From Gemmatimonas sp. (lineage in GTDB: Bacteria > Gemmatimonadota > Gemmatimonadetes > Longimicrobiales > Longimicrobiaceae), in NCBI GenBank assembly GCA_009380025.1, contig WHSP01000012.1, forward strand, positions 1 through 56,892: a DNA stretch of 56,892 bases. Direction: 5' to 3'. The position numbers were made by a program, and so were the translations under genes. Under the pieces are notes generated by a model. It did not search any database. It was not told where the DNA came from and saw only the letters and a list, made by a program, of their open reading frames with translations. Positions 2,979 through 36,464 of this stretch are shown piece after piece (positions within the stretch are counted from its first letter, which is position 1; every line of letters starts with the position of its first letter).

Positions 2979-5408
2979 ATGACTACCATTGCCAACGACT
3001 TCCGTTTCGCCTTTCGCCGGCTGGCTGGAGATCCCGGTTTCAGCGCCGCCGTTCTCCTCACACTGGCACTCGCGATCGGCGCCAACGTAGCGCTGTTCAC
3101 GGTAGTGAATGGGGTGTTGCTGCGCCCTCTTCCGTATCCGGAGGCGGACCGCATCGTGGAGATCCGCCACCACGCGCCAGGCTTGGACTTGCCCGAGTTG
3201 AGGTCCTCGGCTGGTTTGGTGGAGTTTTATCGCGACCGTGCGAATTCCGTGACGGAGGTGGCGGCGATCCAGACGGGGTCGCGGAATTTGAGCGGAGATG
3301 ATCGCCCCGAGCGCGTTCCGACAATCGAGGTCACCCCCGACTTCTTCGATGTTCTCGCTATTCAGCCCGTTCTGGGGCGGCAGCTCGTGGAGGCGGATGC
3401 CCAGGAGGGGGCGCCGCCCGTGGCGATCCTGACCTACCCGACCTGGCAAGCCAGCTTTGGTGGCGATCCCGAGATCGTCGGTCGAATGGTGGAGGTGAGC
3501 GGCACGACCACAGAAATCGCGGGCGTCATGTCCCGGAGTTTCGCCTATCCAGACCCCGAGACGGCGTTGTTGCTCCCTCTTTCGGTGGACCCGTCCGCCG
3601 AATTCGGAGCATTCGGCCTCACGTCGCTCGCTCGCTTGGGTCCGGGTGCGGACGTTGAGGCGACGCGCACTGAGTTGAACGCCTTACAGCAGAGTCTTCC
3701 GGAACGTTTTCCCGACCTGAGCGCCGACTTCTTCGAGTCGGCTGGCTGGTCTGTCAGTGTGGAGGCGCTACGGGACCGAATGGTGGGCGATGTCGCTCCT
3801 ACGCTCTGGGTGCTGCTTGGCACAGCGGGGCTGGTACTCCTCATCGCCGGGGCGAACGTCGCGAATCTCTTCCTCGTGCGGGCCGAATCTCGGCGGCGGG
3901 AGGTGGCGGTGCGCGGAGCACTCGGTGCGAGCGGCGCGCGGATCGCACGCACCTTCCTGGCTGAAAGCCTGTTGCTCGGCCTGTCCGCTGGCGTTCTGGG
4001 GGTGTTGTTCGCCGACGGCGTCGTCGAATTGTTGCGGGCACGGGGACCCGTCGATCTGTTGCCTCGCCTGCAGGAAGTCAGTGTCGATGCTACCGTGCTC
4101 GTGTTCGCCGCTGCCGTGAGCGTGCTCGCCGGTCTCGCGCTGGGCTTGTTGCCGGTACCGAGCATCATACGCCAGCCAGCCGCAGCCGTGTTGCATGGAG
4201 GGCGCGGCAGCACGGCCGGACCGGCGCGTCACCGGGCGCGACGACTGCTGATCGTGATCCAGATTGCCCTTGCACTCGTGCTCCTCGTCGGTGCGGGGCT
4301 CATGCTCCGCAGCGTGCTTCGGTTGCGGTCAGTCGACCCGGGCCTTCGGGCGGAAGGCGTGCTCAGCGTTGGCGTTGGCCTCGGGGAGGCGCCGGAGCGC
4401 TCCGCTGCCGTCGCCTTCTACCACCGCCTCCTCGAGGAGGTGGCCGGGCTTCCCGGTGTCGTCGACATGGGCGCGACAACCAGCCTGCCGGTTCAGCCAG
4501 TCGGTTACAATGGCGGATCATTCGAGATCGAATCCCGACCCCTCGCTGACGACGCGCTGCCGCTGGTCGCCATGTGGCATGTGGTCACGGACGGCTACTT
4601 CGAGACGGTGGGTATCCCGCTACTCGAAGGCCGCACGCCGGTCCGCGCCGATGCGGAGGGAGGACGGCCAGTCGCGTGGGTGAACGAAACGTTCGCCCAA
4701 AGGTACCTGGACGGCCGCGCACTCGGAGAACGCATACGAATCAGTCCCGACGCGGCCTGGACGGAGGTTGTTGGCGTGGTAGGCGATGTGCGCAACTTCG
4801 GGCTCGACGAGGCAGTCCAACCGTTCATCTCTTTACCCATGACCGCGACCGGGCCAGTCAGCGGACTGGAGGTGATGCAGTTCGTTGTCCGGACGAACGG
4901 GTCGCCTACGAATCTCGTACCTGTCATTCAGGACGCGGTGCGCCGTGTGGACGCGACGGTACCGATCACGGCGGTTCGCACCATGGAGGAGATCATCGCA
5001 TCGTCCACGGCACGGACGGCTCTGACGATGGTGCTCCTGACGATCGCCGCTGGGGTTGCGCTGGTGCTCGGCGTGGTCGGCCTCTACGGCGTGATCAGCT
5101 ACCTTGTTACGCTTCGGCGGGCCGAAATCGGGGTGCGGATTGCCCTCGGTGCGCGGCCCGAGTCAGTCCGCAGGATGATTTTGCGGCAAGGGATTGGGCT
5201 AACGCTGACGGGGGTTGTCGTCGGGCTGATCGCCGCAGTGGCCGTAACACGTGTGCTGGCCTCTCTGCTCTTCGAGGTCTCGGCACGCGACCCGGTCACG
5301 TTCGCAATCGTGGCCGGCGTGCTCACGCTGACGAGCCTGGTGGCCTCCTACGTGCCCGCACGTCGCGCCACGCGTCTCGATCCGATGGTTGCGCTCCGGA
5401 CGGAATGA
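2979..5408 (+). CDS. ADOP/MacB-type FtsX permease
   Basis: An 809-residue inner-membrane protein with the duplicated FtsX-permease layout. TM1 lies in a LLTLALAIGANVALFTVVNG context (about 28-47), followed by a large periplasmic MacB-PCD-like domain (50-260). Three TM helices follow (about 268-400, including LLIAGANVANLFLVRAESRR). A second half begins at RRLLIVIQIALALVLLVGAG with its own periplasmic domain, and the last three helices come before a VPARRATRLDPMVALR ending, the signature tail of this family. There is no N-terminal permease-prefix domain and no PadR gene next to it, unlike the copy at 22713. ADOP proteins are thought to act in lipoprotein or antimicrobial-peptide export with a separate ATPase. 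No ATPase gene is adjacent; substrate unknown. Confidence 0.88.
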   Translation: MTTIANDFRFAFRRLAGDPGFSAAVLLTLALAIGANVALFTVVNGVLLRPLPYPEADRIVEIRHHAPGLDLPELRSSAGLVEFYRDRANSVTEVAAIQTGSRNLSGDDRPERVPTIEVTPDFFDVLAIQPVLGRQLVEADAQEGAPPVAILTYPTWQASFGGDPEIVGRMVEVSGTTTEIAGVMSRSFAYPDPETALLLPLSVDPSAEFGAFGLTSLARLGPGADVEATRTELNALQQSLPERFPDLSADFFESAGWSVSVEALRDRMVGDVAPTLWVLLGTAGLVLLIAGANVANLFLVRAESRRREVAVRGALGASGARIARTFLAESLLLGLSAGVLGVLFADGVVELLRARGPVDLLPRLQEVSVDATVLVFAAAVSVLAGLALGLLPVPSIIRQPAAAVLHGGRGSTAGPARHRARRLLIVIQIALALVLLVGAGLMLRSVLRLRSVDPGLRAEGVLSVGVGLGEAPERSAAVAFYHRLLEEVAGLPGVVDMGATTSLPVQPVGYNGGSFEIESRPLADDALPLVAMWHVVTDGYFETVGIPLLEGRTPVRADAEGGRPVAWVNETFAQRYLDGRALGERIRISPDAAWTEVVGVVGDVRNFGLDEAVQPFISLPMTATGPVSGLEVMQFVVRTNGSPTNLVPVIQDAVRRVDATVPITAVRTMEEIIASSTARTALTMVLLTIAAGVALVLGVVGLYGVISYLVTLRRAEIGVRIALGARPESVRRMILRQGIGLTLTGVVVGLIAAVAVTRVLASLLFEVSARDPVTFAIVAGVLTLTSLVASYVPARRATRLDPMVALRTE

Positions 5409-22368: not shown

Positions 22369-22716
22369 ATGATGTCCACAGACCGATCCGACCTGCTCCA
22401 AGGCACCCTCGAGCTCCTCGTCCTCAAGACCCTCTCCCTCGAGCCGATGCACGGGTGGGGGATTGCGCAGCGGATCGAGCAGATGTCGAGCGGGATCTTC
22501 GAGGTGAGCCAGGGCTCGCTCTACCCAGCACTCCAGCGGATGAAGAACCGAGGGCTCATCAAGTCTGAATGGCGGGTGACGAAGAACAACCGCCGGGCGC
22601 GCTACTACCTATTGACTCCTGCGGGGCATCGTCAGCTCCAGGCTGAGAGCCGCGCGTGGGAGCGGAGCTCGGGAGCCGTGAACCAGGTGCTGGGCTGGGA
22701 AAGGGGGTCGGCATGA
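22369..22716 (+). CDS. PadR family transcriptional regulator
   Basis: A 115-residue winged-helix regulator. It opens STDRSDLLQGTLELLVLKTL, the usual start of PadR proteins that control ADOP permeases. Helix-turn-helix and wing follow: HGWGIAQRIEQMSSGIFEVS, then GSLYPALQRM, GLIKSEWR and ARYYLLTPAGHRQL. ATG 22369 or ATG 22372 is the start; longer frames add an unconserved leader. Its stop overlaps the ATG of the permease by four bases (ATGA), so the two are translated together. PadR proteins usually repress their own operon; I see no clear palindrome close upstream. Confidence 0.9.
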   Translation: MMSTDRSDLLQGTLELLVLKTLSLEPMHGWGIAQRIEQMSSGIFEVSQGSLYPALQRMKNRGLIKSEWRVTKNNRRARYYLLTPAGHRQLQAESRAWERSSGAVNQVLGWERGSA

Positions 22717-25337
22717 GTTGGCGGGATGGCGTGTGGTCGCGTCTGCGGGGCTTCTTCCTGCGCCGACGGGAAGAGCGCGAGATGGACGAGGAGCTCGCCT
22801 TCCACCTGGAGATGCAGGTCGAGGAAAATGTGACGGCCGGGATGTCACCGAAGGAGGCTCGCCGGCGGGCGATACTCGAGTTCGGTGGGGTCGAGCGATA
22901 CCGGGAAGCCGTGCGTGACGAGCGACGGGTTCCGGTTGTCGATGATCTGTGGCGCGACTTCCGACAGGCGTGGCGCACCCTCCTCCGGACACCGGGCTAC
23001 TACAGCGCGGTGATCGTTCTGACGCTGTCGCTTGCGATGGGTACGAGCGTGGCCATCGCGACGATCGTGCGGGGGTTGATCACAGATCCGATCCCGGTTC
23101 CCGAGGCGGACCGGCTCTTTGCGTTCGGCCGTACCACGTCACGAAGTTTCAGCTCCAATCCGACTTACGAGGACTTCCGCGTCTGGGAATCGGAGGTCGA
23201 AAGGCTCGTAGAGCTCGGCGGTTCCACCTACGGTAGCCTGACGATCGGGGACGGTTCGACGACCTCCTACGCACGCGGCTTTCGCGTGACAGAGGGGTTC
23301 TTTCCGGCACTTTCTCTCCGGCCGCGGCTCGGCCGAGTACTCTTGCCGTCGGACCACGAGCCGTCGAGCGAGCCCGTCGTGGTGCTTAGCCACCGGGTCT
23401 GGGAACGGGTCCTGGACGGGGACCCGGAGGCCGTCGGAAGGACGGTATTGCTCGACGGCCGACCCCATACGGTCGCAGGAGTTCTCGAGACGGGCGCCGA
23501 GTTCCCCGCGCCGGTCGACCTGTGGTACCCACTTCAGCCGGCTGGGGACGAGGCTGCCGGGCTTTACCTCGACGTGATTGGCCGGCTCCGACCGGGCGTG
23601 GTGGCAGAGGAGGTTGGTGCTGCGCTGACGGCCATTCAGCAGGGTCTCGAGGCCGACCGATCAACGGACGAGCGGACGACTGGAGCGTACATCGGTCCCT
23701 GGACGGGCCGATTCACGGACGAGGCCATCCAGGCGACGAGGATGTTGCACATCGCCGTCCTCCTTCTGCTCCTCATCGGTGCGGCCAACTCGTCCGGGCT
23801 GATGTTGACGAAGGGGATCACGCGAAGTCGAGAATTTGCGATCCGCGCTTCGCTCGGCGCCACTCGGTGGCGGCTCGGGCGTCAGCTCCTGGCCGAGAGC
23901 GTCATTCTCGCGACACTCGCCGGGTTGCTGGGGCTGCTCGTCGCGTACGTGACGATTCGACTGGTTCGGCTCGGTCCGGCCGAGACCTTCGCCCATAACA
24001 ATATGCTCGGCTGGGAGCGGCTCGGACTGGACGGGAGGTCGCTCACTTACGCCCTCGTCCTCTCGGCCCTGGTCGGCATCGTCTTCGGGATGACCCCAGC
24101 ACTGAAGGCGACCGGCCGCGACCTGGTAACCGGTCTTCGCGATGGCACACCGGCGAGCACGACCGACCGCGGTCGAAGCCGTATCCTGCGTTTTCTTCTC
24201 TGCGGGGAGGTCGCCTTTGCTCTCGTGCTCCTGACAACAGGAGGGCTGCTTGCACGCAGCGTCTTCGAGATCGTGCGACTCGATCCGGGGCATGCGGAGG
24301 AGGGCGTGTTGACCGTTCGGTGGACGTTGCCGGCGGACAGCGCGCTTCCCGATGACCGGACCGTCACGTTCCAGAGCCTGCTCCTCGACCGTCTCGGGGC
24401 GATGCCGGGGGTCGAAACAGTCGCGGTCACCTCGAATCTACCGGCAACGCGGTTTGGCCGTTGGAGCCGTCAATACCAGGTCGCGGATTCCGGATCCGCC
24501 GCGGGGACGGGCCGCGCGTCATGGCGGTCGATCACGCCGGGGTATCTGGGATCGATGGGGATCACGCTCGTCGTCGGGCGCGATATCGACGGAACGGATC
24601 GCGAAGGATCGCCCCCGATCGCTCTAGTCAGCGAGACCCTCGCGCGCCGGCACTGGCCAAATCTGATCGAGTCGATCGGCCGGAGAATCACGCTGGAGGA
24701 AGAAGGCTGGACGATCGTCGGCGTCGTGAGAGACGTGCTGGGCCCCAACCGCGACCCGGCGCCCGCCGTCTATATCCCGCAGAGCCAATCGCCGATCTCG
24801 ACCGGCTTCGTCGTTGCGCGGATCGGCGGCAATCCCGTTTCGTTGGCCGCGCAGCTCCGTGCGGAGATCTGGCGAATCGATCCGGCGATCGCGGTGGGCG
24901 AGGTGGAAACGATCGAGAGGATCCTCCGCGATACCTGGGCGAACGAGCGCACGCTCGCCCTCCTGGTCGGTGTGTTCGCCGTCCTGGCCCTCGTCATCAC
25001 GGTCATCTCTCTCTATGCGCTGATCGCACATTCGGTCGCTCGTCGGAAGCAGGAGATCGGGATCCGGCTCGCGCTCGGCGCACTGCCACGACAGATCCTT
25101 CAAGCGGCCATGTGGGACGGACTGTTTGCCGTGGTTGTTGGGACCACGATCGGAGCTGTGCTCGGCTTCGGCGCGAGCCGTCTGATGGCCGGGATGGTCT
25201 ACGGCTTCAATCCGAACGACTCTCTCGTGCTCATGCTCGCAACGGCCGGCCTCCTGCTCGTCGTCGTGCTCACCAGCTACCTCCCGGCCCGCAATGCAGC
25301 GCGTACGGATCCCTTGATCTCGCTGCGAGCGGAATAG
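22713..25337 (+). CDS. ADOP permease with permease-prefix domain
   Basis: An 874-residue inner-membrane protein. The N-terminal prefix (residues 1-75) has MDEELAFHLEMQVEENVTAG and PKEARRRAILEFGG, the soluble domain found in PadR-linked ADOP proteins. It then follows the duplicated FtsX plan: LLRTPGYYSAVIVLTLSLAM, a large periplasmic domain, TM helices around ANSSGLMLTKGITRSREFAI, a second module starting LCGEVAFALVLLTTGGLLAR, and the family tail YLPARNAARTDPLISLRAE. It is co-translated with PadR. One oddity is the substitution AANSSG where most relatives have the CANVAN helix. ADOP function is inferred from FtsX/MacB homologues (envelope transport or lipoprotein handling). Confidence 0.9.
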   Translation: MSWRDGVWSRLRGFFLRRREEREMDEELAFHLEMQVEENVTAGMSPKEARRRAILEFGGVERYREAVRDERRVPVVDDLWRDFRQAWRTLLRTPGYYSAVIVLTLSLAMGTSVAIATIVRGLITDPIPVPEADRLFAFGRTTSRSFSSNPTYEDFRVWESEVERLVELGGSTYGSLTIGDGSTTSYARGFRVTEGFFPALSLRPRLGRVLLPSDHEPSSEPVVVLSHRVWERVLDGDPEAVGRTVLLDGRPHTVAGVLETGAEFPAPVDLWYPLQPAGDEAAGLYLDVIGRLRPGVVAEEVGAALTAIQQGLEADRSTDERTTGAYIGPWTGRFTDEAIQATRMLHIAVLLLLLIGAANSSGLMLTKGITRSREFAIRASLGATRWRLGRQLLAESVILATLAGLLGLLVAYVTIRLVRLGPAETFAHNNMLGWERLGLDGRSLTYALVLSALVGIVFGMTPALKATGRDLVTGLRDGTPASTTDRGRSRILRFLLCGEVAFALVLLTTGGLLARSVFEIVRLDPGHAEEGVLTVRWTLPADSALPDDRTVTFQSLLLDRLGAMPGVETVAVTSNLPATRFGRWSRQYQVADSGSAAGTGRASWRSITPGYLGSMGITLVVGRDIDGTDREGSPPIALVSETLARRHWPNLIESIGRRITLEEEGWTIVGVVRDVLGPNRDPAPAVYIPQSQSPISTGFVVARIGGNPVSLAAQLRAEIWRIDPAIAVGEVETIERILRDTWANERTLALLVGVFAVLALVITVISLYALIAHSVARRKQEIGIRLALGALPRQILQAAMWDGLFAVVVGTTIGAVLGFGASRLMAGMVYGFNPNDSLVLMLATAGLLLVVVLTSYLPARNAARTDPLISLRAE

Positions 25338-27952: not shown

Positions 27953-28045
27953 GCCACGTCCGTCTACCTCCTCGCGGTCCGAGGAGCCGAACGCTCATCC
28001 CGTACGCCTTTGGGCCCGGTCCTGATCTCCGACCTCCCCACGACC

Positions 28046-30556
28046 ATGGCTTCGATCGGCAGAGATCTTCGCATCGCGCTTCGTTCTCTCCTGAGGACGC
28101 CCGGGTTCACAGCTGCCGCCGTGCTTACGCTGGCGTTGGGGATCGGAGCGCCCACCGCGATCTACACCGTGTTGAAGCGGGTCGTCCTGGATCCGCTTCC
28201 GTATCCGGAGGCGGAACGGCTGGTACGGCTTATCAACCACGTGCCCGGTGTGGAGCCCGACGCGCAGTGGGACATGGCCGCCGCCCAGTATTTCTACCTC
28301 GGCGAGCAGGCGAGCTCGTTCGAGGAGATTGGTGCGTACAACGCCGTCGCGTTCAACGTTCAGACCCCTGAGGGTCCGCGCCGGGTGCGCGGCGCAATGG
28401 TGTCGTTCAGCGCGATGGGCATGATCGGGGCGCGGTCGGCGCTTGGTCGCAGCATTGCCGAGAGCGATGACAACCCCGGTGCGACACCGGTGGCGGTTCT
28501 CTCGGATGGCTTCTGGCGTCGGGAGTTCGGAGGGGATCCCGACGTGGTGGGAAGCACGCTCGAGATTTTCAGTATGCCGATCGAGATCGTGGGGGTCCTG
28601 GAGCCGGGGGTGGAGCTACCCGCGGAACCCGGCACCCCATTGGGCGAAGGCACGGACCTGTGGATCCCGATCGCCTCCATCGACTCGCGCTTCAACCCGG
28701 AGGGGCCGTTCCAAAACAACCACACGACGCCGATGTTCGCGCGACTTGCCCCAGGTGTCTCGCTCGATCAGGCCCAGGCGGAGCTGGACCGCCTGACCAT
28801 ACGGTTGCCGGAGGCGTTCCCGAATGTCTATTCACAGGAATTCTTCGAGCGATACGGCTTCCGAACCCAGCTGTACCCGATGAAGGAGTACGTCGTGGGC
28901 CGCGTCGCGGAGTCCTTGTGGGTTCTGCTCGGCGCGGTCGCGATCGTCCTGCTGATCGCGTGCGCCAACGTGGCCAACCTGCTGCTGGTTCGGGTCGAAA
29001 GTCGCCGTCGAGAGCTGGCGATTCGTTCGGCGCTGGGGGCGAGCCCGGGTGCGATCGCGAGACGTCTCCTCGCCGAGGGTTTCGCGCTCGCACTGCTCGG
29101 CGGGATCCTGGGGGTGCTCCTGACTCTAGCCGGCACGCGCGCCCTGGTTGGGCTCGCTCCCGATGACTTCCCCCGCCTTGGCGATCTCCGGGTGGACGGT
29201 GGCGTGGCGCTCTTTGGATTCGGCCTCTCACTCCTGGCCACGCTGATGGTGGGAATCTTCCCGATTGTCCGGGCCAGATCGGAAACCTCGTCTGCCGCAC
29301 TCGCGGACGGTGGACGGGCGACCACGACAGGGCGGGAGCGCCAACGCGTACGGTCCGGCTTGGTCATCGCGCAGGTGGCGCTCGCCCTCGTTCTCATCAT
29401 CGGAGCCGGTCTACTGGTCGAGAGCTTCCGACGACTTCGGGCTCTCGATCCGGGTGTCGACCCCGACGGGGTAGTCGTCGTGGAGCTGAATATCGCTGGC
29501 GAACGTTACCCGGACAGCCGATCGAGGTGGCGCTTCTACGATGCGGTTCTCGAGGGCATGCGCTCCTTGCCGGGGGTGACCTCCGTCGGGATATCGCAGA
29601 CGGTGCCGTTCACCGGTGGCTACGGCTGCACGGTCCAGGGCTTCGAGGATCAACGGGTGTACGAGCGACTGGCGGCCTCGGAGATGACCACCTGCGCTGG
29701 GCAGGAACCGACTTCGCCCGGCTACTTCGAAGCCATGGGCATTCCGTTGTTGCGGGGCCGGACGTTCACCGACGCCGACAACGACCAGCCGAGCACAGGC
29801 GCCGTGATCGTGAGCGAAGCCTTTGCCAACCGCTTCTGGCCCGGCGAAGACCCGATCGGCAAGGGGGTCGGACCCAGCGGACAGACCGATCAGCCGTTCT
29901 ACCGCGTCGTTGGGGTGGTCGGCGACGTGTACAGCAATTCTCCGACGGAGGAACCCGCGGTCGCGATCTACTACCCGATCGTTCCCATCCCGGAGACCAC
30001 CGGCTGGTCGGCCAGTACGATGAACCTCGTCGTCCGGACGGAGCGGGGCAGCCCGACGTCGCTGCTGCCTGAGATCCGCCAGGCGGTGCAGGAGGTGGAT
30101 CCGACCATCCCGCTGGCCAACGCCCGGGAGATGCAGTCTCTCGTGGACGGCTCCATGAGCCGGGTCACGTTTGCTATGACCCTGCTCGGCATCGCCGCCG
30201 CGATGGCCCTGTTGTTGGCTGGCATCGGCATCTACGGCGTGGTCTCGTACATGGCGGCGCGACGTACGACAGAGATCGGCGTGCGGATGGCGCTGGGTGC
30301 CCGGAAGGGCCAAGTGGAGCGACTGGTGCTCGGTGGCTCTGCGAAGCTTGTGACCGTCGGTCTCGTCGTTGGTGGCGGTGCGGCGCTCCTGCTCACACGC
30401 CTGATGCGCGGGCTTCTCTACGGCGTGGAGCCGACGCACCCGGTGAGCTTCCTCTCGGCCGCCCTGTTACTCCTGGCGGTCGGCCTGCTCGCCACCTACC
30501 TGCCCGCACGACGCGCCACCCGGGTGGATCCGATCGCCGCTCTGCGGGCTGAGTAG
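28046..30556 (+). CDS. ADOP/MacB-type FtsX permease
   Basis: An 836-residue duplicated permease, the third in the window and closest in plan to that at 2979. TM1 is in LLRTPGFTAAAVLTLALGIG, the periplasmic domain spans about 50-280, and the central helices include AIVLLIACANVANLLLVRVE and a SRRRELAIRSALGAS loop. The second module starts SGLVIAQVALALVLIIGAGL, and the C-terminus is LPARRATRVDPIAALRAE. There is no prefix domain and no neighbouring PadR or ATPase. Start ATG 28046 (MASIGRDLRIALRS) is preferred over an upstream in-frame GTG/ATG because the conserved N-terminus begins there. Substrate unknown. Confidence 0.88.
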   Translation: MASIGRDLRIALRSLLRTPGFTAAAVLTLALGIGAPTAIYTVLKRVVLDPLPYPEAERLVRLINHVPGVEPDAQWDMAAAQYFYLGEQASSFEEIGAYNAVAFNVQTPEGPRRVRGAMVSFSAMGMIGARSALGRSIAESDDNPGATPVAVLSDGFWRREFGGDPDVVGSTLEIFSMPIEIVGVLEPGVELPAEPGTPLGEGTDLWIPIASIDSRFNPEGPFQNNHTTPMFARLAPGVSLDQAQAELDRLTIRLPEAFPNVYSQEFFERYGFRTQLYPMKEYVVGRVAESLWVLLGAVAIVLLIACANVANLLLVRVESRRRELAIRSALGASPGAIARRLLAEGFALALLGGILGVLLTLAGTRALVGLAPDDFPRLGDLRVDGGVALFGFGLSLLATLMVGIFPIVRARSETSSAALADGGRATTTGRERQRVRSGLVIAQVALALVLIIGAGLLVESFRRLRALDPGVDPDGVVVVELNIAGERYPDSRSRWRFYDAVLEGMRSLPGVTSVGISQTVPFTGGYGCTVQGFEDQRVYERLAASEMTTCAGQEPTSPGYFEAMGIPLLRGRTFTDADNDQPSTGAVIVSEAFANRFWPGEDPIGKGVGPSGQTDQPFYRVVGVVGDVYSNSPTEEPAVAIYYPIVPIPETTGWSASTMNLVVRTERGSPTSLLPEIRQAVQEVDPTIPLANAREMQSLVDGSMSRVTFAMTLLGIAAAMALLLAGIGIYGVVSYMAARRTTEIGVRMALGARKGQVERLVLGGSAKLVTVGLVVGGGAALLLTRLMRGLLYGVEPTHPVSFLSAALLLLAVGLLATYLPARRATRVDPIAALRAE

Positions 30557-30719
30557 CAGATCGGTCGGGATCCGCGAGTACGTCGCGTAAACGGCTGTAC
30601 TGGACGTGGATGATGGCTCACGCACAGGTTTAGTCACAACGCGTCGCTGGATGCGCAACGACGGGGACTCCGTACACGATGGCTGAAGCATGGCGATGTA
30701 TTCGGGTGGCCTCGCCAGC

Positions 30720-30838
30720 CGTCATTCCCGCGACAGCGGGAATCCAGAAGGCTTGAAACCGACGGGGCGACTGGATCGTGACTGGATCCCCGCTCCCGGC
30801 TTACAGCCCGCCGGGACAGGCTTCGCGGGGATGACGAC
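30720..30838. repeat. REP-like repeat (GTCATTCCCGC family), full palindrome
   Basis: GTCATTCCCGCGACAGCGGG, then AATCCAG opens the element, and CTGGATCCCC ... GCGGGGATGACGAC closes it in inverted orientation, so the 119 bases can fold as one long hairpin. This is the most complete of four copies. The rest of the 30557-30909 gap (353 bases) holds no gene. Confidence 0.75.
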
Positions 30839-30909
30839 TCGGAACACGTCGCCGCAACCGTAGCCAGGAGGGACCGAGGCCGGGCATTGCCGTCAGGGCA
30901 AGTCAGGCC

Positions 30910-33444
30910 TTAATTGGCTGCCACCTGCCACCACCACGCTGCTCGCCGGAGGTGACGATCCATCTCGGATCGTTCGCCCGCCCGCGCGTGCGTTTCGCCC
31001 GCGACGTAATGGGCATACGCGTACTGCCTCGGAATGCCGCTCGATGCGGCGTCCGCCCACGGTGCGTCCTGCTTCAGGATCCTGCCCCTCCGGATGTAGA
31101 CGTCCCATAGGAGCGTATCGGTCAGAGGAAGATCGATCGCGGCGCCGGCTATGGCCGACAGTTGGCTATTCTCGATACGGACGACGCCATCTTCGCTGTC
31201 GTCCGGAAGCGGTCCATTGTGAATCTTCCAGGTAAGACCCTGTCGAATGGCGTAGTCCTCGATCCCCAGCGTGGAGACGATGGAAGACCCGGGCATGAAG
31301 TGAACCGGTCGCTCGCCCAACGTCGATCGCAGCATCGTAGCGACGAAGGTATCGGCGGGAGCCAGGTAGGTTCCTGAGGCTATGGTTGCTTCTATGTCAC
31401 CCGCGCGCAGGGTCATCGGGGAGTCGGTGACGAAGTAGCTGCCCGCGATCGTTTCAATCTCCTCATCAGAGAGCGGAAAGATCGAATCGGGAGGCGGTTC
31501 GGTCGCCTGTAGCCAACCCGCGCGCGCGAGCGGAAGTGGCAAGTCCCCAGGCTTCATCGCTCGCTGGCAGACGATCCTAGTTGGGGTGGCGTCCGGATCG
31601 ACACCGGCAGGGCACGGCTCCGTGAGCTGTCTCAGCTGCTTCACGTACCACGATGTGTTCAGGTATTCGCTTACCATCACCGTGACGTCCCTGCGAAGCC
31701 CCTCGACTTCCTGCAGATACCACAGCGGGAAGGTGTCGTTGTCGCCGTTCGTGACGAGCACGCCGTAGGGCTCGACGCTCATGAGCGCGTTATACGCGAA
31801 GTCGCGTGCGGCGAAATCGTCGGCCCGCGACGCCCACGACCAGTTCAGCGCCAGTGGGATGACGGCAAGCGCGAGCACCGGGGAGGTAGCGAGTCGAGGC
31901 ACTGGCACCTTCGCGCGGGCGATCCCAGCCATGCGCGACCAGAGCGCGACCAAGCCGATCCCTGCCCAGAGACCCCAGACGCTGAAGCCGATCACGAAGA
32001 AGTAATCGCGCTCACGCACCTCGTGCATCGAGACGGCCGGGAACCGATCCCACGCGATCGCAAAGCCGTAGCGGAAGTTCAGGTATCCAACGAGCCCGAG
32101 GGAGAGCGTCAGAAAGAGTGTGCCCATGTAGATCGCCGTCTCACGATCGGCTTTCCAGTTCGTCCTCGCCCCGAACAGGCCAAGGAGGACGAAGAGCACC
32201 GTAAGGGCTGGTCGCATACCGCCGAAGAGAGGATCGGCGCCCGCGAGCCCTCGTCCCCATTGCCAGTCGAAGTATTGCAGGTAGTTGAGAAGTTGGAGGC
32301 CGATCAGCTCTGCGCTGCGTGGCGCCTGCTTCGCCGGATAGAGCGTGGGGTCCAACAGAAGGGGCGGCTTGCCGTATTGGTCGCGCGACAGCACCGCCGA
32401 CAGAGCATCGCATCCGCTCGCGCCCCAGGTATAGATGCTCTGCACGGCCCCGACGATCGACGCGCATTCGGGTTGACCTTCGGCGAGGATCGGGTCCTGT
32501 GCCGCCCGGAGCGGTAGAAGGAGTTGAGTGGAAAGGGCGAGCGCGACTACGGGCAATGCGACGAGCCAGAACGTCGGGCGCTTGAGCGCACGCCGATCGA
32601 CGAGGACTACGAATGCCGCGAGCGCCGGAACGACGAGCACGCCCATCAAGTGATTTGTTGCCGTCAGCGCCACGACGAAGACGATGGTAACGAGACGTCG
32701 TAGCCCGCATCCGGTGTCACGCCATCGCAGAATCAGCCAACTCACCAGGGCAGAAGTGAAGAAGGAGACCGCATATACCTTCTCGCTGACGTTCGACTGA
32801 TTCCAGACCGTGAACGCCGTCGCCGAGAGCGCGACGGCAGCCGCGGCACCGATCCAGCGAACCTTCCGATCCTCGATCGTACCCGCGAGCACTCGATCGA
32901 CGACCAGAAACCACAGGGCATGGGAACCTGCGGAGAGGAACGCGCTGAACAGATTGATGCTCACCACGGGCGTCAGGCCCGTCGGTGCGAGCACGACTTC
33001 CCACAGATGCGCCAGGAGGACGAAAAGCGAACTGCCTGGGGGATGTGGTATCCCGAGCGTATGCGCCACCGCGGTGTACTCACCGGAATCCCAGAAGCCG
33101 ATCGACGGGGCCAGGGTGACCACGTAGAGCACGAAGACCAGCAGGCCAGCGATGAATGCAGCCGCATAGGGTGGGCGGCGATCGTCCTCCAGCAGGTCGT
33201 GCGAGGATCGGTATCGACGCAGCGCGCCCGCCCATTGGTGCGGAACGCTGCGGGCAAGGTCGAGCAGTACTTCACCGAGGAAGACGAGCAATCCCGCCGT
33301 ACCCGCCTGTCGCACACGGTACCAGTCAGAAAACGTACGGCGGAGCTCCTGGCCGTACTCGTTCCGGAATCCCGGCGGATAGAGAAACAGTAAGAGCCCA
33401 TAAACGCGCTCCAGAGACGAGCCACCGGATGCCCGCGTGCTCAT
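30910..33444 (-). CDS. DUF2723 (TMEM260-like) membrane protein with an N-terminal permease-type prefix
   Basis: An 844-residue polytopic membrane protein. Residues about 10-85 (YGLLLFLYPPGFRNEYGQEL, RRTFSDWYRV, then a VFLGEVLLDLARSVPHQW helix) are the short domain usually found at the front of PadR-controlled ADOP permeases. From about residue 95 it is DUF2723: the luminal/periplasmic motif GFWDSGEYTAVAHTLGIPHP followed by PG, about ten TM helices, then a soluble C-terminal domain with LVTNGDNDTFPLWYLQEVEG. DUF2723 is related to protein O-mannosyltransferases, where the Asp-Glu pair of DSGE is catalytic. The start is ATG 33444 or GTG 33447, overlapping the PadR stop. Combination of a regulator-linked prefix with a glycosyltransferase-like body is unusual. 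Confidence 0.85.
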   Translation of the reverse strand: MSTRASGGSSLERVYGLLLFLYPPGFRNEYGQELRRTFSDWYRVRQAGTAGLLVFLGEVLLDLARSVPHQWAGALRRYRSSHDLLEDDRRPPYAAAFIAGLLVFVLYVVTLAPSIGFWDSGEYTAVAHTLGIPHPPGSSLFVLLAHLWEVVLAPTGLTPVVSINLFSAFLSAGSHALWFLVVDRVLAGTIEDRKVRWIGAAAAVALSATAFTVWNQSNVSEKVYAVSFFTSALVSWLILRWRDTGCGLRRLVTIVFVVALTATNHLMGVLVVPALAAFVVLVDRRALKRPTFWLVALPVVALALSTQLLLPLRAAQDPILAEGQPECASIVGAVQSIYTWGASGCDALSAVLSRDQYGKPPLLLDPTLYPAKQAPRSAELIGLQLLNYLQYFDWQWGRGLAGADPLFGGMRPALTVLFVLLGLFGARTNWKADRETAIYMGTLFLTLSLGLVGYLNFRYGFAIAWDRFPAVSMHEVRERDYFFVIGFSVWGLWAGIGLVALWSRMAGIARAKVPVPRLATSPVLALAVIPLALNWSWASRADDFAARDFAYNALMSVEPYGVLVTNGDNDTFPLWYLQEVEGLRRDVTVMVSEYLNTSWYVKQLRQLTEPCPAGVDPDATPTRIVCQRAMKPGDLPLPLARAGWLQATEPPPDSIFPLSDEEIETIAGSYFVTDSPMTLRAGDIEATIASGTYLAPADTFVATMLRSTLGERPVHFMPGSSIVSTLGIEDYAIRQGLTWKIHNGPLPDDSEDGVVRIENSQLSAIAGAAIDLPLTDTLLWDVYIRRGRILKQDAPWADAASSGIPRQYAYAHYVAGETHARAGERSEMDRHLRRAAWWWQVAAN

Positions 33445-33809
33445 CACGCCATCCCCCGCTGTGGCAGGAGCTTCTTCTGCCGGGCGCCCATGAGGAGCCG
33501 CTCCAACCGACGCGCCTCGAGCGTCGCTAGCTCCCGACCGAGAGCCGTCAGGTGATAGTAACGACGCCTTTCATCATCGGCCGCGCGCCAATCGGCCTCC
33601 ACTTCCTCGATCAGTCCCTGCCCGCGAAGCCGCTTGATCGCACCATACAGCGTCCCCGGACCGAGGCGGAGCCTGCCGTCGGTACGCTCTCCCACTTCCT
33701 GAATGATCCCATAGCCGTGGCGGTCCTCGTCCGCGAGCGACAGCAGAATCTGAAAGACCGCCTCGCTCAGGGGTACGAGCGCTTTCGGATCGTCGAGAGT
33801 TCGTGTCAT
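33444..33809 (-). CDS. PadR family transcriptional regulator
   Basis: A 121-residue winged-helix regulator: LVPLSEAVFQILLSLADEDR, HGYGIIQEVGERTDGRLRLG, PGTLYGAIKRL, LIEEVEADWRAADDERRRYY and LTALGRELA. It belongs to the PadR subgroup with a short C-terminal helix. ATG 33809 has GGAAG 4 bases upstream; a longer in-frame start would place the N-terminus across the operator palindrome, which argues against it. Its stop overlaps the start of the DUF2723 gene, so the two are co-translated. A perfect 21-base palindrome 38 bases before the start is the probable autoregulatory site. Confidence 0.9.
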   Translation of the reverse strand: MTRTLDDPKALVPLSEAVFQILLSLADEDRHGYGIIQEVGERTDGRLRLGPGTLYGAIKRLRGQGLIEEVEADWRAADDERRRYYHLTALGRELATLEARRLERLLMGARQKKLLPQRGMA

Positions 33810-33847
33810 CCGCTTCCGTTTCTGGGAGGGTTCTGGGACCGAGGTCG

Positions 33848-33868
33848 CTATATCGTGACACGATATAG
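33848..33868. promoter_or_regulatory. perfect palindromic PadR operator
   Basis: CTATATCGTG-A-CACGATATAG: 10-bp perfect arms around one base, 38 bases upstream of the padR ATG. TATATCGTGACACGATATA-type palindromes are typical operators upstream of PadR/ADOP loci. It lies between this gene and the divergent fur gene. Confidence 0.75.
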
Positions 33869-33966: not shown

Positions 33967-34473
33967 ATGGATTTCGCCAGGCACGACTTCAGCCAATCCC
34001 TCCGTAACGCGGGCCTACGGGTCACGGTACCGCGACTCGCGGTGCTCACGGCAATGGCCGAGGGATCGCCGCATGTGGACGCCGATGCGATTGCGGAAGC
34101 AATGCGTGCTCGGATCGGCGATGTTCCCCGCCAGACGGTCTACAATGTCCTCCGTGCGTTCCTGGAAGCTGGGCTCGTACGTCGCATCGAGCCGGCCGGA
34201 AGCCGGGGGCTATACGAGCTTCGTGTCGGGGACAATCACCACCACGTGGTGTGTCGGCGGTGCGGCGCCACAGCCGACATCGACTGTGTGGCGGGCAGGG
34301 CGCCATGCCTGGAGCCCGAGGAGACGGGTGGGTTCCTGATCGACGAGGCAGAGGTGACGTTCTGGGGATTGTGTCCCGCGTGCCGAGGGCTGACATCCGA
34401 GGGGGGCGACGCGACGGGTCGCCGTGAATCGGCCACAAACCATATTGGGAGGGGAGAATCAGATGTCGGATGA
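33967..34473 (+). CDS. Fur family regulator (PerR/FurA-like)
   Basis: A 168-residue Fur-family repressor. The N-terminal winged helix contains [20 protein letters not shown] and [20 protein letters not shown]. The dimerisation domain has the regulatory metal site [16 protein letters not shown] (about 92-107), and the structural zinc Cys pairs are CRRC and CPAC (near 137-140). Residues after about 145 ([15 protein letters not shown]...) are an unconserved tail. The gene overlaps the catalase start by 11 bases, an arrangement like the actinobacterial furA-katG pair, so a peroxide-sensing role is likely; the sequence does not settle Mn, Fe or Zn use. Confidence 0.87.
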
Positions 34474-35945
34474 ACGAAAGCCCACCACCACGACGGATGC
34501 AGGCATTCCCGCAGCGAGTGACGACCATTCGCTATCCGCAGGGCCCAATGGTCCGTTGCTGTTACAGGACCACTACCTGATTCAGAAGATGGCGCAGTTC
34601 AACCGGGAACGTGTGCCCGAGCGAGTCGTGCACGCCAAAGGAGGCGGCGCGCACGGCTTCTTCGAGGTCACCGCTGAAGTGACGCCGTATACGAAGGCGG
34701 CGTTCCTCAACCGGGTCGGTAAGAGGACGCCGGTCTTCATCCGCTTCTCCACTGTGGCAGGCGAGCTGGGATCGGCCGATACCATGCGTGACCCACGGGG
34801 CTTCGCCATCAAGTTCTACACGGAGGAGGGGAACTACGACCTCGTCGGCAACAACACACCGATCTTCTTCATCCGAGATCCCCAGAAGTTTTCGGATTTC
34901 ATCCACTCGCAGAAGCGCCACCCGGTCACCAACACGCGTGATCACGACATGCAGTGGGACTTCTGGGCGCAGTCGCCCGAATCGGCGCACCAGGTCGCTT
35001 TTCTGATGACGGATCGGGGGACGCCACGCAGCTGGCGCCACATGAACGGCTATTCCAGCCACACGTTCATGTGGATCAACGCCCAGGGCAATCGGTTCTG
35101 GGTCAAGTACCACTTCAAGACGGACCAGGGCATCGACAACTTCGCCGATGGCGAGGCGAAGGCGATGGTATCGGAGGATCCCGACCACCACATGCGGGAT
35201 CTGTTCAATGCAATCGAAGGCGGCGACCATCCTTCCTGGACTCTGCAGATGCAGATCATGCCGTTCGACGCGGCGAAGGAATATCGGTTCAACCCGTTCG
35301 ACCTGACCAAGGTGTGGCCGCACGGGGATTTCCCGCCGATCACGATCGGGAGGCTCGTGCTAGACCGGAACCCGGCGAACTACTTCGCCGAGGTCGAGCA
35401 GGCGGCGTTCGAACCATCGAACATGGTACCGGGCATCGGACCCAGCCCGGACAAGATGTTGATCGGCCGTTTGTTCAGTTATCCGGACACGCACCGCCAC
35501 CGAATCGGCACGAACTATCAGCAGTTGCCGATCAATCTGCCGCACTCCGAGGTGCACAGCTACAACAAGGACGGCGGCATGCGGTATCGCCACAACGGCG
35601 ATCAGCCGGTCTACGCGCCCAACAGTTATGGTGGGCCTGTGGCGGATCCGCAGCATGAGGAGCCGGGATGGTTCGTCAGCGGGGAGATCGTGCGAAGCGC
35701 CTCTCAGCCGCACAGCGATGACGACGACTACCGTTCAGCCTCGGACGCTGTGGACAGATGTGCTCTCGGAGACGGATCGCGACCACATGATTGCGAACAT
35801 CGTCGGCCATCTGAAGGGGGGTGTCCGGCCGGAGACCCTCGAGCGGGCCGTCGACTACTGGCGGAAGATCCACCCCGATCTCGGCGACCGCGTCGCTGCG
35901 GGCGTGGGACTGCCGACTATATCGGCGGTGATCGCCAGCCGGTAG
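34463..35945 (+). CDS. monofunctional haem catalase, frameshifted near the C-terminus
   Basis: Clade-3-type catalase (2 H2O2 to O2 and water). Catalytic His57 is in [12 protein letters not shown], Asn130/131 in [10 protein letters not shown], and the haem-ligand Tyr340 in [16 protein letters not shown]. Conserved VRFSTV-like [16 protein letters not shown] is present. The frame is intact to about residue 423; then one extra base in GACTACCGTTCAGCC (about 35731) shifts it. The true end ([20 protein letters not shown] ... [14 protein letters not shown]) continues in the next frame to 35945, restoring about 493 residues. If translated without correction, an aberrant tail runs to 36349. The core haem domain is complete, so some activity is possible. 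ATG 34463 has GGGAGGGGAG upstream. Confidence 0.85.
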
Positions 35946-36000
35946 GACCGCAGGGGTCCGCAAGAAGGCTCATTAAAAGGCTTGATAAGAGGGGCCCCTG

Positions 36001-36178
36001 CGAAAGGCCGAAGAGATCGTGCTCCGAACGAAAGGATCGCTTGCGGGCCCGAGGCCCGCGCCCCAGGAAAGCGCGACGCCAACCGCAGCCGGCCTCGGTA
36101 CCCCTGGGAGCGCAGTCGTCCTCGCCCGTCGTAGGTTTCGCCATTCCCACGCAGCGCGCGATTAATCAAGGGCCTTTT
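36001..36178. repeat. interspersed TIR repeat, diverged copy E
   Basis: Starts CGAAAGGCCGAAGAGATCGT and ends GCGCGATTAATCAAGGGCCT, the same terminal pattern as the element at 41900-42047, and also has the TTCCCACGCAG box. Its middle contains a GCGGGCCCGAGGCCCGCG unit like that at 11081, so it looks composite. The whole 35946-36464 gap otherwise holds no gene. Confidence 0.6.
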
Positions 36179-36464
36179 GAAGAAGACCACACCGCGCGAA
36201 TCATCGTCGTGAAACCGCGTGGCCCAAATTCTGGCGGCCGGAGTCATCCAGTGGGCGATCATTTAGGGTGCCAACGATTCCCGGTTGGACGCGGTACCGG
36301 CCCAAGTAGTGGGTACGCTTCACACCCGCGTGCGGGATTAGGGGGATAGGATCCATTCCCAACTCCGACTAATTTTGTCCGAGCCAGACAACTCCGTACC
36401 GCCCGAACGGCATTATGGATACGCTCGGATCCGGATGCGGACCGATGGAAGGAGGACGGTTGGC

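Follow-up and report, generated by a model that had tools for sequence, protein, structure and literature searches.

The stretch of 56,892 nucleotides at positions 1-56,892 of contig WHSP01000012.1 of Gemmatimonas sp. (GenBank assembly GCA_009380025.1, 5.02 Mb in 478 contigs, completeness 97.21), referred to here as the window, carries on its minus strand an operator-like palindrome (33848-33868), then a padR gene (33809-33444) and then a gene (33444-30910) whose product joins a short N-terminal prefix domain to a TMEM260-like membrane body. This fusion is rare and conserved. The best explanation of the locus, and probably the right one, is an operon that its own PadR represses and in which the membrane protein acts back on PadR through the prefix. 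This explanation builds on the anatomy of the locus, the conservation of the operator, the homology of the parts, the single clade formed by the fused bodies and the co-segregation of PadR, operator and prefix, all of them computed. The features of the locus are the following:

33848-33868, no strand assigned: operator-like palindrome, CTATATCGTG-A-CACGATATAG, which includes the 19-bp consensus TATATCSNNNNNSGATATA
33444-33809, minus strand: padR, 121 amino acids, PadR-family winged-helix regulator
30910-33444, minus strand: gene of the prefix-TMEM260 fusion, 844 amino acids, open frame
33205-33417, minus strand: PadR-linked prefix domain, about residues 10-80 of the fusion
32602-33090, minus strand: TMEM260-like Pfam domain PF11028, residues 119-281 of the fusion
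33079-33090, minus strand: D119-x-x-E122 motif in the first loop after the first transmembrane helix (TM1), where a GT-C enzyme may have its catalytic site

The padR gene starts at ATG 33809 and stops at 33446-33444. Its product exceeds the Pfam cut-off for PF03551 (62.8 bits vs 27) and falls below that for TIGR03433 padR_acidobact (58.7 vs 101.8 bits). Two starts are possible for the fusion gene, ATG 33444 (TGATG, a 1-base overlap with padR) or GTG 33447 (a 4-base overlap), and the overlap described in the first-pass annotation of this stretch holds with either; its bounds for the locus, 30910-33868, were also correct, the palindrome ending at 33868.

TMEM260-like bodies are nearly universal in the phylum, with a match in 291 of 298 genomes, and nearly all of the matches listed from these genomes start at about residue 70-100 of the fusion. 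Matches that begin at its first residues come, among those listed, only from the window's own genome and from two others (G283 and G196). A profile of residues 1-200, applied to the 154 genomes of the order, adds a further two (G359 and G360), so that the fusion is present in at least five of these 154 genomes; both the body scan and the profile scan report best matches, and weaker fusions may be hidden. All five fusions have padR directly upstream. Among 80 named TMEM260-like loci, prefix and padR occur together in three, while 77 have neither upstream, and TMEM260-like genes without the prefix are preceded by padR in 0/34 and 0/77 cases in two locus sets that share genomes and include some loci with short upstream stretches. 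The survey that the first-pass annotation had proposed therefore places the fusion as uncommon among DUF2723 proteins. A chance reading frame or a single-genome artefact is ruled out by the four additional fusions with padR. Candidate fusions in genus g10, where the match starts at residue 22 or 42, were rejected, as the loci concerned (L066-L069) have neither prefix nor padR.

The five fused proteins share 48-55% identity over their whole length, with P23, R27, E33 and D62 invariant, and the PadR homologues upstream of two of the fusions (L064 and L065) are 55 and 59% identical to that of the window. In a tree of 77 TMEM260-like bodies, the five fused bodies form one clade (support 100, a starred branch).

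The body itself was named TMEM260/O-mannosyltransferase-like by the first-pass annotation, and this assignment is borne out. Residues 119-281 of the fusion match PF11028 with 115.4 bits, against a cut-off of 24.2 (E 3.4e-33), and a body profile matches human TMEM260 (PDB 9rql, E 3.5e-22), the human protein having a D and an E at the positions of D119 and E122. Neither D119 nor E122 varies in any of the 45 aligned rows, whether the protein is fused or not. An AlphaFold2 model of the fusion from 45 rows reaches a mean predicted local distance difference test score (pLDDT) of 83.2 and a predicted template modelling score (pTM) of 0.83; prefix and linker are modelled as helices at residues 10-20, 24-45 and 49-89 (pLDDT about 50-75), and the modelled helix at 93-110 is taken as TM1. 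The modelled body superposes on Pmt4 (9i5l; Z 21.0, root-mean-square deviation 4.0, 352 residues aligned) and also on OST, PglB (Foldseek E 1.8e-5) and ArnT; the alignments to GT-C structures start no earlier than about residue 78. TMEM260 was not among the structural matches listed, though it is matched by sequence. Model and sequence together point to a GT-C fold of the O-mannosyltransferase type, which would be expected to transfer sugars. In GT-C enzymes, the N-terminus is cytoplasmic and an acidic motif lies in the first extracytoplasmic loop. With such a cytoplasmic N-terminus, the prefix would lie on the PadR side of the membrane.

A prefix-less TMEM260-like copy is also present in all five genomes that hold a fusion, and the branches of the fused bodies are long (0.58-0.9 vs a median of 0.13). 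Both observations would suit a fused protein that is an inactive sensor, binding a polyprenyl-linked sugar and signalling via the prefix to PadR, while the ordinary copy does the chemistry. However, the fused bodies retain D119, E122 and a large part of the invariant core, and long branches could equally reflect an altered substrate, so that a sensor of this kind is considered improbable.

A relative of the prefix is present in the same genome. The first 90 or so residues of the fusion have no Pfam or NCBIfam match, and comparison with solved structures gave only E values above 0.3. In a whole-protein search, however, residues 3-82 match a disrupted ADOP permease gene of the same genome (35% identity, E 1.8e-5), whose open reading frame (ORF) consists of the prefix followed by the first transmembrane helix of the ADOP. 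In locus L003 (G000:C39), at 1291-1731 on the minus strand, the ADOP gene with this type of prefix is cut short, and transposase-like ORFs adjoin it. The consensus of the domain is RxYRxLLRLYPxxFRxxxGxEMxxxF...D, and its core, RxLLRLYPxxFR, gives it the name of LYP-type prefix used here. A profile of this prefix found 97 matches in 32 of 150 genomes sampled from the larger phylum group. Behind them stand 82 ADOP bodies, 13 other bodies and one TMEM260-like body, and one weak match was not found again. Counted under other bodies are, for example, small proteins with hydrophobic stretches and a length near 200 residues (L116-L120 and L129) and two LptF/LptG-like proteins (L127 and L128; PF03739, E 3.5e-22 and 7.2e-28), in which the prefix again follows padR and which hint at PadR control of a permease of the lipopolysaccharide-export type.

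Across these differing bodies, padR adjoins the prefix directly in 89 of the 97 matches (76/82 ADOPs, 12/13 other bodies and 1/1 TMEM260), which makes padR, and not the permease, its constant companion. The median gap from the padR stop to the start of the prefix domain is 9 nt over 97 padR-linked places, a few of which are counted twice through overlapping loci (duplicates were removed for the 89/97 tally). Of the eight matches without an adjoining padR, four are unexplained and two are probably false; of the remaining two, one has a mobile element beside it and the other stands where a contig begins. In the window's own genome, for the best 30 of 69 ADOP matches, padR lies upstream of 14 of 18 ADOPs with a recognised prefix vs 2 of 11 without; one ADOP with padR that was scored as prefix-less (L214) presumably bears a further prefix type. 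Two ADOP genes of the window, 2979-5408 (L220) and 28010-30556 (L216), have no recognised prefix, and no padR was found upstream of them; between the latter and the fusion gene, the stretch 30715-30840 is repeat-like, with an inverted 'attcccgc...gcgggaat' core that resembles dispersed palindromic repeats. A plasmid search with one ADOP prefix gave no match, and the open-access literature returned nothing under 'DUF2723' and nothing on a PadR-linked prefix domain.

These counts suggest that the prefix is the domain of PadR rather than of the permease. Since it follows padR on any body and segregates with PadR, it is better called a PadR partner than a permease domain. The earlier proposal that a glycosylation-type membrane enzyme had taken the place of the usual permease stands insofar as the fusion is real and rare, but not in treating the prefix as permease-specific. 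The predominance of ADOPs among the prefixed bodies and the change of bodies under one PadR class would also fit a PadR that senses a small soluble ligand alone, with the enzyme as its target and the prefix as the relic left when the body of an ADOP-type gene was replaced. A relic would be expected to decay, whereas the prefix is kept in five divergent fused proteins with the identity and the invariant residues given above, and there is little to recommend this alternative.

According to profile comparisons, two prefix classes can be distinguished in these genomes. A second system in the window, with padR at 22420-22641 followed by an ADOP at 22710-25337 that carries NF038403 perm_prefix_1 (E 9.7e-19), offers a built-in comparison. 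Among the best 30 of 43 padR loci of the same genome, 23 are followed by perm_prefix_1, three by the LYP-type prefix and four by neither. An alignment of 53 of the 91 listed prefix sequences plus that of the window was used to characterise the LYP type; three helices are predicted in it at moderate-to-low confidence, and it has no conserved GxP column. Neither NF038403 nor the ADOP permease model TIGR03434 matches the fusion at E<=1, none of the 53 members matches NF038403 or HAAS (PF22564) at E<=0.1, and the comparison of LYP-type and perm_prefix_1 profiles gives an hhalign probability of 0.7%. The prefix as a perm_prefix_1 or HAAS domain was rejected on this lack of profile support. By contrast, 11 of 35 perm_prefix_1 members match HAAS at E<=0.1 (best 1.6e-4), and by sequence perm_prefix_1 is HAAS-like. 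The first-pass annotation had called the fusion's N-terminus an ADOP-type prefix, which is right in that the homologous domain has ADOPs as its main carriers, but it is not the modelled perm_prefix_1; the ADOP prefix profile, put forward as the check, matches the window's other padR-linked ADOP instead.

The palindrome before padR, reported by the first-pass annotation as perfect and 21 bases long and read as the operator of the locus, was confirmed as such a sequence and, through its conservation, as a putative operator type. It has the sequence CTATATCGTGACACGATATAG, with two perfect 10-bp arms flanking one base, and lies 38 bp upstream of padR. At up to three mismatches it is the sole match in the window (0 expected in 100 shuffles) and the sole site in the 5.0-Mb genome, where the scan counts one site once per strand. 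An operator of the type TATATC-S-N5-S-GATATA is found upstream of padR, with no or one mismatch, at all five TMEM260-fusion loci (the window, L115, L064, L065 and L114). The consensus TATATCSNNNNNSGATATA occurs at up to one mismatch in 25 of 95 padR loci of the LYP-type class, against 0.0/95 expected in shuffles and 0/92 gene bodies, a count that is partly circular because the consensus was derived from palindromes of the same loci, though it stands well above both controls. At this threshold it is found in 0 of 52 padR upstreams of the perm_prefix_1 class, where the best site has four mismatches. Some of the latter upstreams (L339, L355, L338 and L051) bear other palindromes, some of the TCCAGTAGACATTCTACTGGA kind, which may be the operators of the perm_prefix_1 PadR class. 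Two fusion loci have TTGACG ahead of TATATC, at distances of 14 and 17 bases, but a sigma-70 promoter that includes the operator was rejected, with no -35 enrichment over 25 sites (0.16 vs 0.147).

The prefix classes were also compared with the phylogenies of the proteins on either side. A PadR tree of 148 tips (95 before LYP-type and 53 before perm_prefix_1 prefixes, with 30 loci returned from six genomes, not a random draw, added for the latter part) requires one change of prefix class vs a shuffled mean of 43.5, and the nearest tip is of the same class for 148/148. The split does not follow genomes, since within the window's own genome the five LYP-type PadRs are widely separated in the tree from the 23 perm_prefix_1 PadRs. 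The five TMEM260-linked PadRs group together on the LYP side, with support of only 73. In a tree of 121 ADOP bodies, by contrast, there are 30 class changes vs a shuffled mean of 37.7, with at least seven forced by starred branches, and the nearest tip is of the same class for 84/121; given the poor resolution of this tree, 30 is the upper reading and seven the supported minimum. Many forks are unresolved in both trees. From these changes, breaks between prefix and permease are repeated, while no break between padR and prefix was seen over the 148 PadRs. PadR, operator and prefix class thus co-segregate and the permease body does not, so that the three behave like a single regulatory cassette that can be exchanged as a whole.

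This contrast between the two trees also bears on the possibility that the prefix assists the downstream protein in membrane targeting, folding or assembly, with padR as its neighbour through block inheritance only. Such a role would suit a domain that is predicted to be helical and stands directly before TM1, and the eight prefixed genes without an adjoining padR would be at home in it. Nevertheless, prefix-less TMEM260-like and ADOP proteins abound and mostly lack padR in the comparisons above, one prefix is common to very different bodies, and over 148 tips padR and prefix were not exchanged while prefix and permease were, all of which makes a helper unlikely.

Several results weigh against the prefix as a means of controlling PadR in an autorepressed operon. 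Besides the eight of 97 prefix matches without an adjoining padR, 70 of 95 LYP-class padR loci are without the operator at up to one mismatch, and a -35 box is not enriched near it. The class split in the PadR tree has a support of 94, just below the starred level, and 59 of 118 inner branches of the ADOP-body tree are open. Moreover, co-segregation of adjacent genes could also arise from inheritance of a cassette whose parts make no contact, and the prefix modelled alone folds at low confidence (pLDDT 63, pTM 0.38).

Under the favoured explanation, the locus would be a two-gene, self-regulated operon. By analogy with the systems compared below, the PadR repressor would bind the palindrome before its own gene and thereby control both padR and the overlapping gene of the TMEM260/GT-C glycosyltransferase. 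The enzyme's helical, cytoplasmic N-terminal prefix would be a dedicated partner of PadR, which it might hold, release or reshape depending on what state the enzyme is in, for instance engaged with a donor or an acceptor or under envelope stress, with the outcome that enzyme supply tracks demand. The cassette would have been joined to a second TMEM260-like gene copy in a single event, in an ancestor shared by a few lineages of the Gemmatimonadota.

On the other side of the locus, the window contains at 33967-36349 a divergent Fur/PerR-like gene (PF01475), followed by an ORF, presumably catalase-like, with an apparent frame break near 35650. The remainder of this ORF lies in another frame, and either a real lesion or an assembly error is possible.

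Among known systems, the closest are the HAAS-PadR pairs (Ravi et al. 2024, PMC11237479), in which PadR is proposed to receive a signal from a helical domain fused to a sensor, as an alternative to two-component systems; PMC12419801 likewise treats this type of signalling. The HAAS-PadR pairs and the fusion locus both combine a stand-alone padR gene, which adjoins all five fusions and 89 of 97 prefix matches, with an alpha-helical domain at the N-terminus of varied multi-transmembrane proteins, including, among the HAAS-PadR pairs, FtsX/MacB-type permeases. They differ in that the prefix has no convincing HAAS, Pfam or NCBIfam match (0/53 for HAAS and perm_prefix), in that its alignment has no conserved column for GxP, a motif of the third HAAS helix, and in the GT-C glycosyltransferase body, which is absent from the bodies named in the passages of PMC11237479 consulted. 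The padR, perm_prefix_1 and ADOP system is alike in having padR directly before a prefixed membrane protein, but has another prefix class, another PadR group and another operator than the fusion locus. In Listeria, LltR, LstR and LftR are described (Hauf et al. 2019, PMC6624303) as PadR repressors of their own operons, which include membrane-protein genes. A DUF1700 membrane protein comes after LltR; partner domain and bacteria are different, and the Listeria systems were tested experimentally, while the fusion locus is known computationally. Finally, the TMEM260 protein O-mannosyltransferase (PF11028; 9rql) has a homologous body with the aligned D/E motif, whereas the fusion is bacterial and bears a PadR-linked prefix, and its body can be aligned by sequence in no more than two stretches.

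The wider implications concern the Gemmatimonadota, whose genomes can hold dozens of padR genes beside ADOP permeases of unknown role; the window's own genome has 43 padR matches and 69 ADOP matches. The data suggest that the prefix marks a PadR circuit and that bodies were swapped behind it several times, the fusion being one such case. Somewhat more tentatively, with a little less than even confidence, the LYP-type prefix may be an undescribed PadR partner and part of a portable cassette that is wired in two or more mutually exclusive ways, which would make each body the sensor of its own transcription. If the prefix is such a partner, the natural swap onto a glycosyltransferase is a control for telling what the prefix does apart from what the permease does. 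The split into PadR-prefix classes yields testable cognate and non-cognate pairs with a defined operator. With the prefix as the partner of PadR, padR-ADOP arrays would also become readable as parallel membrane-to-gene circuits, and, if the LYP-type cassette is what it appears to be, an enzyme of the protein-glycosylation type would report its workload to its own gene.

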